A stretch of DNA of 64,000 nucleotides, from positions 186,001 to 250,000 of the forward strand of contig NZ_CP011266.1 in NCBI RefSeq assembly GCF_001477655.1, read 5' to 3'. Shown here piece after piece: positions 27,663-33,613 of this stretch (position 1 is the stretch's first letter; every line of letters begins with the position of its first letter). Made by a program: the position numbers and the translations under genes. Below the pieces are notes generated by a model, which was given only the letters and a program-made list of their open reading frames with translations, ran no database searches and was not told where the DNA came from. Origin of the DNA: Methanobrevibacter millerae. Lineage in GTDB: Archaea > Methanobacteriota > Methanobacteria > Methanobacteriales > Methanobacteriaceae.

Positions 27663-30600
27663 TTATCTCCAGTATTTTTGTGGAACATTGAATGGATCCC
27701 ATGTTTCCTCATTGAAATAGTTGTAAGTTTCTTGTTTAGATAATGTTTTAACATTTCCATTACTTATATATTTCACGTTATCCCTATCTAAAGAATTATC
27801 CTTTTTTATCGGAATTTCAAGGTAATCGACACTTCCATCCTCTTTTGGGATATTGTATATTTTTGTATTCTGCAAATATCCTGGGCGTGTGAAAGTAACG
27901 TGGTCATAGGCTGCATGTTTATCTTTTTCATCTAAATAATTATCTACAATATAGACTCCAATTGATTGTAAACTGGTTGCTGTTCCAATAAGACTCAATC
28001 CCACTGTTAAACTTCCTCCAATCAAAGCTCCAACAATACCTTTTGCTAATAATGTTCCTTTGAATGCTATACTTGTCAATGGTTGAATATTGTCCCCAAT
28101 ATAATTTAAAATATTGTTTAATTCTCCAATTCCATTATTAATTTTATGCATCATTGAATTCATCATGCTGTTAATGCTGCATAATCCACAGTCTCTCGTC
28201 ACACTAATGCCCTTATATGCAAAATCATCTTTTATGAATAATGGTGTTACTAAACCGGTGTTTAAATCAATTACAAAACTTGAATTTCCACCTTCATCAC
28301 TTATTATTGCAGTATTGTTGTAAAAAACAATACTTGCTTTAAATGATTTAAGTGAATTAAAAATATCATCAAATACGGATGTGATGTTGTCTTCAGCATC
28401 CTGTGCTATTGGAAGAAGGGAGTTTTGTTCAATTTTTGATAATAAAATTGAGTTAACAAAGCGGAAGTTAATAATGTCACTTTCATCGTCCCCCTGTATT
28501 GATCTTCCCATATCCGGGGTCAAAATATGCATGAATGTTTCTTTCCAGTTCATTGATCCAAGAATGACTGTATTATTTGTTCTGGACCATTTCATGTTTG
28601 TGTTCATTGTCATATTGTCTGATAGTTTATCGCTTAGGTATGCTGTGTTTAATGATGTTAAAAACATTGTATATATGCTTTGCATTCCAACATTGGATTT
28701 ATATTCAACTTCCTTATTGATCCATTCATCAATATCATTATCGCTTATCTTTTTGTTAATTATTGTAAAAGATTGTAAAACATCAAAGTCTCCTTTGTAT
28801 TTATCACTTAATCCGTAAGTAATCAGTTCTGATTTTTCAAATTCAATACAATTTTCGGAATTGAATTTTGTCATGATATCTTCTTCTTTTAAAATGCCGA
28901 CAATTTTTTTGCCAAAGTAATCGAATATTACTGATTCATTAGTTTTTGCAAATTTGATTTTATCTATTTCTCCATTAGTTATTGAACTATAACTTTTATA
29001 TTCAAAATCATATATCATTTTTCCATAATATTTGGATAAAGTGTATTTTAAACCAATTTCATCGAAGCCCATTGTCTGGAATTTGATTTTAGCAATATTT
29101 TCTCCATTTTGTATATAATTAATGATTTCACTATTATCAATGAATTTATCAATATACGCACCAAATTGTTCAATATTGCTGCTGCAATTATTTCTATAAA
29201 TAAAATGGGTAAAATTCGTGCTTCTATATAATATGATTCCATTTCCGGTTAAATTTTCCAATTTATAGTTGTGTTGGGCCGGACTGTTGTCAAATGGTAA
29301 TAACCAGTACTTTGACCCTAAATATTTGGCAGAATATTCTGGCATAAATGATGTTGAAAATATATGTGTTTTATTTCCAATTTCTATTTCAAATAATTGG
29401 TTTTTTTCTATTCTAATAATTCCATTAATACCGCTTTTTATGGAATAAAAACTATTTTCAAAAACATATGGAAATGTGATATTCACATAATTTGGTAGTT
29501 TTATTTCATATGTGAAATTAGTATTCTTTATAATTTCCTGTGTTTTTTGTGCGGAAATCTTTATATTATTTGATACTTTTAAATCATTATTTTCAGAAGT
29601 TATTATGTAATCTCCTTCTTGGAGATTTATGCTTAATTTAGCAATTCCACTTTCATTTGTTGTTCTTTTGTATAAAATTCCATTAATATTAAAAGTTACT
29701 ACATCATATGCTTTTGGCTGTCCTGACCCATCAATTAAATAAGCATTAAATGTTGTCCCATCTTTATATGACATTATCAGGTCATTTGTTATTAATGTAG
29801 GTAAAATTTTAATGTTATTTGAAACTTTGCATTCTTCATATTCTGCAGTTATGATATATTCTCCAGGATTTAAATTTAAATTAAGACTTGCAATGCCTGA
29901 ATCGTTGGTTTGGCGTTTGTAGAATATGCCGTTTATATTGAACACCACTTCTTTTCCTGCTTTGCTTGTTTCTCCATTTTTTTCAAGAAGGGTGACGGAA
30001 TATTTTGTGTCATTCCTATAATATTTCACAATGTCCCTGTTATTTATTATATTGGGCAGTATCGTGACGATATTACTAGCCATTTCATTATTTTTCGGGT
30101 TTATTGCAGTTAATATGTATTCACCCTGTCCCAAATTTAAATTTAATTTGGCTATGCCACTTTCATTTGTTGTTCTTTTATAAAATACACCGTTTATATT
30201 AAAATTAACCTCAGTATTTTTCAATGTTTCACCATTGATATCTAAAAATTTAGCATAATACTGCGTTGAGTTTCTATAAATCTTAAATACATCACTTCCG
30301 TAAACTGTACTTTTAATATTGATTGAATTGTTCACTGAAATCTCGTTTACTTTTGTAGTCACATTATATTTTCCACTATTTAAGTTGATAGCAATAGATG
30401 CTTGTCCATTTTCATTACTTTTCCTTGAATATGTCATATTGTTTAAATTAAATGACACTTCAGTATTGTTTAGGGGAGCCATGTTTTCATCATGAATTTC
30501 GGCCGCAAATCGAGTCCCATCTTTATAATACATTTCAATATCATTTGTTTCAATATGAATGTATTCGGATTGTGTGATTTCTGTTGTTAAGGTTTTATTT

Positions 30601-30680
30601 TCCAGTTCTGTAGCTGAAACAGTGCTTATTAAAAAAATAGTTAGGAAAATTAAAACTATCATGTTAATTTTTTTAATCAT
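27663..30680 (-). CDS. Large secreted protein with four Ig-like repeats and a unique C-terminal region
   Basis: A 1005-residue protein. A signal peptide (MIKKINMIVLIFLTIFLIS, cleavage after about residue 24) is followed by four repeats of about 80 residues (roughly 45-372), with the recurring core FNINGxxYKRTTNESGIA. They resemble the Ig-like repeats of methanogen adhesin-like proteins. A large unrepeated region follows (about 390-850), then a hydrophobic glycine-rich stretch GALIGGSLTVGLSLIG near residue 905 and a polar C-terminus ending VPQKYWR. It has no cell-wall anchor that I recognise. I chose the ATG at 30680 over TTG 30692. A small membrane protein gene follows 3 bases later. Confidence 0.8.
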   Translation of the reverse strand: MIKKINMIVLIFLTIFLISTVSATELENKTLTTEITQSEYIHIETNDIEMYYKDGTRFAAEIHDENMAPLNNTEVSFNLNNMTYSRKSNENGQASIAINLNSGKYNVTTKVNEISVNNSINIKSTVYGSDVFKIYRNSTQYYAKFLDINGETLKNTEVNFNINGVFYKRTTNESGIAKLNLNLGQGEYILTAINPKNNEMASNIVTILPNIINNRDIVKYYRNDTKYSVTLLEKNGETSKAGKEVVFNINGIFYKRQTNDSGIASLNLNLNPGEYIITAEYEECKVSNNIKILPTLITNDLIMSYKDGTTFNAYLIDGSGQPKAYDVVTFNINGILYKRTTNESGIAKLSINLQEGDYIITSENNDLKVSNNIKISAQKTQEIIKNTNFTYEIKLPNYVNITFPYVFENSFYSIKSGINGIIRIEKNQLFEIEIGNKTHIFSTSFMPEYSAKYLGSKYWLLPFDNSPAQHNYKLENLTGNGIILYRSTNFTHFIYRNNCSSNIEQFGAYIDKFIDNSEIINYIQNGENIAKIKFQTMGFDEIGLKYTLSKYYGKMIYDFEYKSYSSITNGEIDKIKFAKTNESVIFDYFGKKIVGILKEEDIMTKFNSENCIEFEKSELITYGLSDKYKGDFDVLQSFTIINKKISDNDIDEWINKEVEYKSNVGMQSIYTMFLTSLNTAYLSDKLSDNMTMNTNMKWSRTNNTVILGSMNWKETFMHILTPDMGRSIQGDDESDIINFRFVNSILLSKIEQNSLLPIAQDAEDNITSVFDDIFNSLKSFKASIVFYNNTAIISDEGGNSSFVIDLNTGLVTPLFIKDDFAYKGISVTRDCGLCSINSMMNSMMHKINNGIGELNNILNYIGDNIQPLTSIAFKGTLLAKGIVGALIGGSLTVGLSLIGTATSLQSIGVYIVDNYLDEKDKHAAYDHVTFTRPGYLQNTKIYNIPKEDGSVDYLEIPIKKDNSLDRDNVKYISNGNVKTLSKQETYNYFNEETWDPFNVPQKYWR

Positions 30681-30800
30681 AGTATCAACCAAGCCTGTTA
30701 ATTTTTTTCATAAATTAACACTCAAACTATGATTAAATTAATATTAATGTTTTAATTTAAAATTTAAAAAGTAAATGTTTATTAAAATGAATTTTTGACA

Positions 30801-31449: not shown

Positions 31450-31827
31450 TTAATCATCAATTTCTAAAGTTTGTTTAAAATTTTCCTTTAATTGTTCTTT
31501 TGTTTTTTCGCTGTAGACTTTGTCCTTTTCATCAGCTAATGTGAACATTGCTAATTCATAGATAATTCTATTCATGGATTTTCCATAGTCTGTCAATGAG
31601 TATTCTGTACTTATGGGCTTAGTATCTAAAACTTTTTTTTCAATCAATCCGTTTTTTTCCAAATCTGCTAAGCAACTTGATAAAACTTTATTGCTAATGT
31701 CTTTTCCTTCTTTAAATTCTTTAAAATGTTTTTTTCCAAAAAATAAATCTCTTATTATTTGAATACTCCATTTTTTATTAATTAAACTTAAAGTTCTATC
31801 TACTGGACAAACTATTTCATCAGGCAT
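31450..31827 (-). CDS. HxlR-family winged-helix transcriptional regulator
   Basis: A 125-residue MarR-like regulator of the HxlR (DUF24) family. It has a winged helix with LSLINKKWSIQIIRDLFFG and SNKVLSSCLADLEKNGLI, then YSLTDYGKSM. The conserved N-terminal cysteine (Cys7 in DEIVCPVD), which senses electrophiles or oxidants in several members, is kept, and a second cysteine is near residue 59. It is divergent from the macrodomain/SirTM pair and co-directional with cbiE. The 129-base region between contains an inverted repeat that could be its operator. Confidence 0.9.
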   Translation of the reverse strand: MPDEIVCPVDRTLSLINKKWSIQIIRDLFFGKKHFKEFKEGKDISNKVLSSCLADLEKNGLIEKKVLDTKPISTEYSLTDYGKSMNRIIYELAMFTLADEKDKVYSEKTKEQLKENFKQTLEIDD

Positions 31828-31890: not shown

Positions 31891-31925
31891 GTTACTTTAA
31901 GGTAACTTAGTTCCTTTTCAGTTAC
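31891..31925. promoter_or_regulatory. Candidate operator between the HxlR gene and the macrodomain/SirTM pair
   Basis: GTTAC (31891-31895) and GTAAC (31902-31906) form a perfect inverted repeat with a 6-base spacer. A third half-site, GTTAC, is at 31921-31925. A TATA-like TTTAAATAT follows at 31935-31943. Half-sites in a divergent promoter next to a winged-helix regulator suggest autoregulation and control of the pair; this is inference. Confidence 0.4.
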
Positions 31926-31977
31926 AAAAATCATTTAAATATGTTTAATAATATAATTGAGTAAAGGAGGAATTAAA

Positions 31978-32760
31978 ATAGATACAAATCAGCAATTGGA
32001 ATATCTTTTAAATTATTTGATTGATGAAAGACAGGAAAATATTGAAATCCCAGAAGATATTATTCAAAAAAAGAATTTGCTCCGTTCACTAATGAATGTA
32101 AGGCCACCAATTCCTATTAGTGAAGAATTTTTAGATGTTCAGGATGAATATTTGACAAATGAAATATTGTCGAAAGATTTGGTTGGTGTTGAAGACATTG
32201 GTGAATTTAAAGGAAAGTTAATGCTTTGGAAAGGAGATATCACAGATTTAAAAGTGGATGCTATAGTAAATGCAGCTAATTCCAAGCTATTGGGATGTTT
32301 TATTCCGATGCATAATTGTATTGATAATGTAATTCATTCAGCCAGCGGCATTCAATTGAGGCTGGAATGCGACAAGATTATGAAATTGCAGAATAAGGAT
32401 GAGGATATTGGTAAAGCTAAAATAACAAATGCTTACAATTTGGCTTCTAATTATGTAATTCATACTGTTGGCCCGGCAATTCCTCAAAATTCCAAACCAA
32501 GTGAATTGGATTTTAAAAGACTTGAAAACTGTTATATTTCTTGTTTGGATATTGCAAGCCAGTATAATTTAAAATCTATTGCTTTTTGCTGTATTTCAAC
32601 AGGAGTTTTTAATTTTCCAAAAGAAGAAGCTGCAAATATTGCGGTTAATGCCATGAAAGATTATTTAAAGAATAATGAAACTTCTCTGGAACACATAATT
32701 TTTAATGTTTTTAGTGATGATGACTATTTGATTTATAGAAATATTTTATTTGGTGATTAA
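31978..32760 (+). CDS. Zinc-dependent macrodomain ADP-ribosyl hydrolase (SirTM-linked type)
   Basis: About 260 residues. An N-terminal helical part ends in [16 protein letters not shown]; the macrodomain follows from about residue 78, with GDIT, ADP-ribose loop [11 protein letters not shown], the zinc-site pattern [12 protein letters not shown] (C107, H112, C114), and the second loop [10 protein letters not shown]. This is the zinc macrodomain class that removes ADP-ribose added by SirTM sirtuins. The start is uncertain. AAAGGAGG (31963-31970) is ideally spaced for an ATA codon at 31978, while the nearest canonical in-frame start, TTG 31957, lies before that site. It sits one base before the sirtuin gene. 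Confidence 0.88.
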
Positions 32761-32761
32761 T

Positions 32762-33613
32762 ATGAATCGTTTTGTATTTAGGTTAGATAAAGCTAAAAAA
32801 GCTATTGATGAAGCGGATTATATTGTGATTGGTGCAGGGGCGGGTTTATCTGCAGCTGCAGGTATCGAGTATGGGGGGAAACGTTTTACTGATAATTTTA
32901 AGGATTTCATCGCCAAATATTCGATGACTGATATGTATTCCTCAGGTTTTTATCCATTCAAAACATCTGAAGAAAAATGGGCTTATTGGGCTCGTCATAT
33001 TAATGTTAACAGGTTTCAGGTAGGAGAAACTGAATTATACAAAAAATTATTAAAATTGGTGGAAAATAAGGATTATTTTGTAATCACTACTAATGTCGAA
33101 CATCAATTTTGGATTAATGGTTTTGAAGATGAAAGAATTTTTGCAACACAGGGGGATTATGGACTTTTGCAGTGTGGTGATGCTTGTCATGATAAATTAT
33201 ATTATAATGAGGAAATAATTAAAGAAATGGTTGAAAAAACCGAAGATTGCAGAATTCCTACGAATTTAGTTCCTAAATGTCCTGTTTGTGGTGAAGAGAT
33301 GGAAACGAATCTTAGAAAGGATAATCTATTTGTCCAGGATAAAAATTGGTATGATGCAAATAAAAGATACAGTGACTTTTTAGGTAAGATAAAGGAAAAT
33401 AATATCGTATTTTTAGAGTTGGGCGTAGGTTTCAACACTCCTTCAATTATCAAATATCCTTTTGAACAATGGACTTATGATAATGAAAATGCAACATTAA
33501 TTAGGATAAACAGAGATTATCCTGAAGCAATTAAGGAAAATGCATCCAAAACTATAAGTTTTGATGAAGATATGGATGAAATATTTGATTATTGGCTTTC
33601 AAGAATTCTTTAA
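32762..33613 (+). CDS. SirTM-class sirtuin, probable protein ADP-ribosyltransferase
   Basis: A 283-residue Sir2-fold protein. The NAD loop is GAGAGLSAAAGI (residues 24-35), followed by TTNVEHQFW (N111) and ATQGDYG, where Q130 replaces the histidine of deacetylase sirtuins. The zinc ribbon cysteines are C138, C142, C173 and C176. The glutamine is the mark of class M sirtuins, which ADP-ribosylate proteins rather than deacetylate them. GGTGAT precedes the ATG by four bases, and the start is one base after the macrodomain stop. The bacterial partners GcvH-L and LplA2 are not nearby. The 3' end overlaps the convergent phosphodiesterase gene by 15 bases. Confidence 0.88.
   Translation: MNRFVFRLDKAKKAIDEADYIVIGAGAGLSAAAGIEYGGKRFTDNFKDFIAKYSMTDMYSSGFYPFKTSEEKWAYWARHINVNRFQVGETELYKKLLKLVENKDYFVITTNVEHQFWINGFEDERIFATQGDYGLLQCGDACHDKLYYNEEIIKEMVEKTEDCRIPTNLVPKCPVCGEEMETNLRKDNLFVQDKNWYDANKRYSDFLGKIKENNIVFLELGVGFNTPSIIKYPFEQWTYDNENATLIRINRDYPEAIKENASKTISFDEDMDEIFDYWLSRIL

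Follow-up and report, generated by a model that had tools for sequence, protein, structure and literature searches.

The closest described system to the locus analysed here is the minimal operon of Methanobrevibacter oralis, an orthologous gene pair published in 2024, whose macrodomain, MorMacro, was crystallised (PDB 8RSI, 8RSJ and 8RSK; PMC11490716). MorMacro strips ADP-ribose from Glu and Asp of PARP1 but is inactive on ADP-ribosylated GcvH-L, and its authors leave open what the SirTM/Zn-Macro systems that are not part of the extended operon modify and what role they play (PMC11490716). The SirTM class was defined in a separate study, in which its members lacked deacylase activity and Asn118, Gln137 and Arg192 of the Streptococcus pyogenes enzyme (SpySirTM) were each shown by mutation to be required for activity (PMC4518038). 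An earlier note on the DNA of Methanobrevibacter millerae proposed that a two-gene locus forms a minimal archaeal writer/eraser. The assignment to the SirTM/Zn-Macro kind, in a methanogen host, stands, but the novelty does not, since the M. oralis pair had already been published (PMC11490716); likewise, the suggestion that the target protein may be new repeats a question already open in that paper. The pair therefore adds one more member to a published kind. What is new, and was not picked up in the earlier note, is the evidence for a thiol-stress regulator and its operator, the link to an ACGX peptide system and the non-AUG starts of the eraser gene.

The macrodomain and SirTM genes

The window, by which we mean the whole 64,000-nucleotide stretch of M. 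millerae DNA that was analysed, contains both open reading frames in its ORF list. The zinc macrodomain gene (the eraser, an ADP-ribosyl hydrolase; 31978..32760, + strand) comes first, and the class M sirtuin gene (SirTM, the writer, an ADP-ribosyltransferase; 32762..33613, + strand) starts one base past its stop codon. This linkage to a zinc macrodomain, which belongs to the definition of class M, is kept in relatives, and the macrodomain is the only one encoded in the genome. A large Ig-like-domain, adhesin-like protein (27663-30692) is syntenic with the pair in about two dozen relatives.

The macrodomain scored 350.6 bits in a profile search against the NCBIfam protein-ADP-ribose hydrolase model PRK04143 (cut-off 272) and matched MorMacro (PDB 8RSI) at E=2.5e-114 in a sequence search. 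With residues counted from the ATA at 31978, the catalytic loop holds the Cys-x4-His-x-Cys zinc ligands Cys107, His112 and Cys114 (32296..32319, + strand), kept in 39-40 of 40 archaeal relatives, and the catalytic Asn101 and Asp116 of MorMacro recur as identical residues at identical numbers. By analogy with MorMacro (PMC11490716), zinc-dependent removal of ADP-ribose from Asp and Glu is predicted.

When the sirtuin is aligned with SpySirTM, N111, Q130 and R185 stand where the latter has Asn118, Gln137 and Arg192. The catalytic Asn111 and Gln130 (33092..33151, + strand), with QG replacing HG, are kept in archaeal copies; Arg185 lies at 33314..33316 (+ strand), and the class motif GVGx[NT]TP reads GVGFNTP. 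A PDB sequence search matched only 5A3A (SirTM, 1.2e-59) and 8RSN (the fungal fusion Mfs1, 8.8e-29) and no deacetylase, and the score against Pfam SIR2, 18.8 bits, falls under the cut-off of 24. The tree that the earlier note had suggested sets the protein apart from the deacetylase: it groups with archaeal and bacterial SirTMs, nested inside a supported archaeal clade, and the canonical Sir2 encoded elsewhere in the same genome, the one deacylase in the tree, sits on a branch more than 8 long. Archaeal acquisition of SirTM appears as five label changes in this tree, which is also compatible with one. ADP-ribosyl transfer without deacylase activity is predicted for the window enzyme by analogy with its class.

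Thus every residue tested is present, and the claims of the earlier note about the zinc pattern, the Gln that replaces the catalytic His beside a retained Asn111, and the one-base spacing of the genes are all borne out. The pair can be identified from its sequence as a genuine two-gene ADP-ribose tagging switch, an attaching enzyme adjoined by its remover, with an agreement in families and residues that is far beyond chance. Judging from close published relatives, the two proteins very probably do transfer and remove ADP-ribose.

Of the 152 genomes of the archaeal phylum, 75 encode SirTM; they fall into 4 of 20 genera, all of one family. SirTM was also found in at least 582 stretches of a species-representative genome collection, and the 80 matches kept come mostly from bacteria of gut and rumen. 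Two loci, L035 (7621-8457) and L036, carry a tandem second SirTM; the L035 copy has Asn in place of Gln and a broken GVGxNTP motif, and is probably a pseudoenzyme. A divergent SirTM (39% identical) at L041 (6673-7482) has no macrodomain and lies close to HxlR genes, a PNPOx-like gene and a TMEM175-like channel gene.

The HxlR regulator, its putative operator and the eraser start codon

Divergent from the pair lies a gene for an HxlR/DUF24-type regulator (31450..31827, - strand; Pfam HxlR E=2.6e-19) with an N-terminal Cys, C7, in the motif CPVD. The protein thus combines the two features of the MarR/DUF24 family, an HxlR domain and a conserved N-terminal Cys, and the single Cys is kept in 30 of 31 neighbouring HxlR proteins. 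The Bacillus subtilis members YodB, CatR, HypR and HxlR share the fold, the conserved Cys and divergent stress genes, and in Bacillus the N-terminal Cys of DUF24 regulators senses oxidants and electrophiles (PMC6943732, PMC7835342). B. subtilis HxlR itself differs in being a formaldehyde sensor that acts by Cys11-Lys13, whereas the CPVD motif has no Lys two residues on. By analogy, the window regulator is predicted to change its DNA binding in a Cys-dependent manner.

The association of this regulator with the pair is not confined to one arrangement. In archaeal loci HxlR adjoins the pair in either orientation, divergent or co-directional, and in several distinct surroundings. In bacteria it lies inside the SirTM locus, a stretch of roughly 10 kb, in 13 of 27 searched genomes, as set by manual coordinate comparison, against 0.15 expected, and in several of these it is the sole HxlR gene of the whole genome. 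In five Methanosphaera-group loci (L037, L042, L043, L045 and L052) the genes downstream of SirTM include those for glutathione peroxidase and flavodoxin. Given the regulator family and neighbours such as these, a thiol or electrophile stress is somewhat favoured as the signal. We found no literature that treats HxlR together with a macrodomain or sirtuin.

Between the divergent genes lies an operator-like palindrome, GTTACTTTAAGGTAAC (31891..31906); the 2.54 Mb genome has three exact GTTAC-N6-GTAAC sites, of which this is one. The palindrome is followed by a second half-site pair, GTTCC-N6-GTTAC (31910..31925), which is aligned and conserved in most loci of the genus, and by the TATA box of the macrodomain-SirTM promoter, TTTAAATAT (31934..31942, + strand), within a conserved ATCATTTAAATA block; in relatives the TATA box usually lies 43-51 nt ahead of the start codon. 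The same order of palindrome, further half-sites and TATA box recurs across the genus, where 33 of 46 loci have GTTAC-N6-GT[A/T]AC no more than 150 bp ahead of the macrodomain start, at -83 to -96 in nearly every case. Among 67 genus genomes there are 69 exact palindromes, 20 of them by SirTM (0.13 expected), 9 by rSAM_ACGX (0.04 expected) and 40 elsewhere; it should be emphasized that loci and palindromes are related by descent, so that these counts are of non-independent events. Rarity of the palindrome was dropped as evidence, the reversed control pattern being commoner overall, and position alone counts. Three loci without an adjacent HxlR (L063, L064 and L070) retain the palindrome, and some other loci have neither HxlR nor an exact palindrome. 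With operator and regulator paired by position, we infer that HxlR binds here, and it probably controls the operon through the palindrome.

The start of the macrodomain gene is itself variable. A Shine-Dalgarno sequence, GGAGG (31966..31970, + strand), precedes the candidate non-AUG start codon ATA (31978..31980, + strand), a choice that follows from comparison of homologous codons in the genus, and the spacing to the start is 4-7 nt in almost all relatives. The homologous codon is ATG in 20 genus loci, ATA in 14, ATT in 12 and ATC in one, and hence differs from ATG in 27 of 47. The commonest SirTM start column among all sampled relatives reads ATG in 67, GTG in 4 and ATA in 1 of 77, and three neighbour genes start with ATG almost without exception. 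The ATT comes straight after a stop codon in L065 and L069, and L069 has no usual start codon until 39 nt further on, where a Shine-Dalgarno sequence is lacking. The TTG at 31957 chosen by the mechanical ORF caller is an unlikely start, since it lies only some 23 nt past the TATA box, close to where the transcript should begin, and has no Shine-Dalgarno sequence of its own. We infer near-cognate initiation at AUA or AUU, which could keep the eraser low relative to the writer. Repeated switching between ATG, ATA and ATT in one gene offers an uncommon set of natural variants with which non-AUG initiation could be tested in archaea.

The linked ACGX system and the target of the writer

The other two exact palindromes of the genome lie 29 bp apart at a single place (L119), outside the window, before another HxlR gene. 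This gene is divergent from those for a 75-aa peptide (6805-7041 of L119), which begins MFKLNSWNEN and carries six ACGSD repeats, and for a radical SAM/SPASM protein that scores 574 bits for rSAM_ACGX (TIGR04340, cut-off 400); a zinc-type quinone/alcohol dehydrogenase-like protein and a flavin/4Fe-4S protein come next. The locus thus matches the NCBIfam ACGX system, a TIGR04340 maturase with an ACGX-repeat peptide. HxlR genes flank the ACGX cluster on both sides. The same kind of operator at both loci places the macrodomain-SirTM pair and the ACGX cluster in one putative stress response.

A wider association is consistent with this. Ten bacterial SirTM loci contain genes of the rSAM_ACGX family (cluster c4), which often lie a short way ahead of the macrodomain and SirTM genes and are accompanied by ACG-repeat peptides. 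Among the 152 genomes of the archaeal phylum, SirTM is present in 29 of the 32 with rSAM_ACGX as against 46 of the 120 others (Fisher p=5e-8, relatedness uncorrected), and within the genus in 17 of 17 as against 29 of 50 (p=5e-4, again uncorrected for relatedness). The literature search returned no paper on the ACGX system and no link between it and SirTM. Besides HxlR, the commonest neighbour in bacterial macrodomain-SirTM clusters is DUF1848, which lies in or beside the cluster in 15 loci (among them L122, L141, L150, L158, L162, L175, L179, L180 and L187) and for which no literature was found; nitroreductase, cupin, flavodoxin, Rrf2 and NAD-binding genes also occur.

The reading that we favour, to which we give a probability of about 0.72 with operator, ACGX regulon and AUA tuning included, is that the locus encodes a known kind of writer and eraser under thiol- or electrophile-stress control, with a target other than GcvH. 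SirTM would move ADP-ribose from NAD+ onto an acidic side chain in at least one protein other than GcvH and GcvH-L, and the zinc macrodomain would take it off again. The HxlR/DUF24 regulator, sensing thiol/electrophile or oxidative stress via its N-terminal Cys, would govern the operon from the GTTAC-N6-GTAAC operator ahead of the TATA box; the like operator before the second HxlR gene would govern the cluster of ACGX-repeat peptide, radical SAM and oxidoreductase genes, and the near-cognate AUA start would further tune eraser output. Protein identity, residues, gene order, operator position and start-codon variation are read from the sequence and the enzyme activities from published close relatives; DNA binding by HxlR, its signal and the start-codon effect are steps of interpretation.

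It could be argued that the connection goes further, and that the ACGX-repeat peptide, or another member of its cluster, is the SirTM substrate, ADP-ribose being borne by the acidic residue after ACGS or by the Cys. The operator shared by the two loci, the presence of rSAM_ACGX or the peptide within a few kb of the pair in about ten bacterial loci and the co-occurrence across genomes would all fit, as would the repeats themselves, which read ACGSD or ACGSE, given that known SirTM acts on Asp (PMC11490716). Shared stress regulation alone would, however, yield the same linkage, and 46 of the 75 archaeal SirTM genomes, including complete ones such as G047, are without rSAM_ACGX, so that the peptide cannot be a general target. 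It is quite unlikely that the minimal SirTM/Zn-Macro operon, HxlR and the ACGX system form one thiol-stress module of archaeal and bacterial gut anaerobes in which the peptide is ADP-ribosylated where present, but were this true the peptide would be the first target of a minimal-operon SirTM.

The pair might also be read as resembling a toxin-antitoxin system such as DarTG, in which case a harmful SirTM would be neutralised by the macrodomain. The eraser gene does come first and adjoin the writer, and the distribution in the phylum is patchy (75 of 152 genomes), but the SirTM of L041 has no adjacent macrodomain, synteny is stable in about two dozen loci of the genus, gene order is reversed in bacterial loci and published members of the class modify a metabolic carrier protein (PMC4518038). 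A PADLOC search for defence systems, which gave no match except a weak one to the HxlR helix-turn-helix, also counts against this explanation, which we regard as quite improbable.

A target other than GcvH, as the favoured reading holds, is supported by the content of the genome. The enzyme families and catalytic residues are those of the lipoate-linked system of Staphylococcus and Streptococcus, which might operate here with GcvH-L supplied in trans. The whole-genome search for GcvH-L and LplA2 homologues proposed in the earlier note, however, found no match to GcvH/GcvH-L (PF01597) in this single-contig, 99.99% complete genome, although 13 of 14 control genomes matched, and no lipoate-protein ligase above the cut-off, the one match being below it at E=2.9e-4. 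The single biotin/lipoyl domain of the genome sits in a 569-aa ORF. Other genomes of the phylum give weak GcvH matches, nearly all of them in ORFs of about 570-610 aa; these were rejected as true GcvH, biotinyl domains of large ORFs being the likely source; true GcvH (E <1e-30) occurs in about ten of 36 genomes of bacterial relatives. The absence of GcvH from the genome rules out the usual target, GcvH-L, so the target must differ, and almost certainly is not GcvH. The inactivity of MorMacro on ADP-ribosylated GcvH-L (PMC11490716) points the same way, and a lipoate system in trans is largely refuted. An ordinary deacylase paired with an O-acetyl-ADP-ribose deacetylase, as the names of some automatic family models imply for sirtuin and macrodomain, can be dismissed in view of the His-to-Gln replacement, the SirTM-only PDB matches, the SIR2 score, the tree, the separate canonical sirtuin and the lack of deacylase activity in SirTMs (PMC4518038).

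Comparison with described SirTM systems

The extended SirTM operon of Staphylococcus aureus and S. pyogenes (PMC4518038) shares with the window pair its writer and eraser families and their catalytic residues, but includes GcvH-L and LplA2, both of which the window pair lacks, having an HxlR regulator instead; the published archaeal eraser, MorMacro, does not act on GcvH-L. The M. oralis minimal operon is closer: it comes from the same genus-level lineage and has the same two genes, with zinc and catalytic residues at equal numbers. The SirTM of locus L059, where the macrodomain matches the first residues of the MorMacro chain, is 73% identical to that of the window, although the L059 eraser gene begins with ATG and the window copy with ATA. 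The text of PMC11490716 makes no mention of an HxlR regulator, radical-SAM linkage or start codon. With a regulator, an operator and a few co-regulated genes to work from, the question of target and role that was left open for such systems becomes a testable one: which stress induces the operon, and does the ACGX cluster act as its partner?
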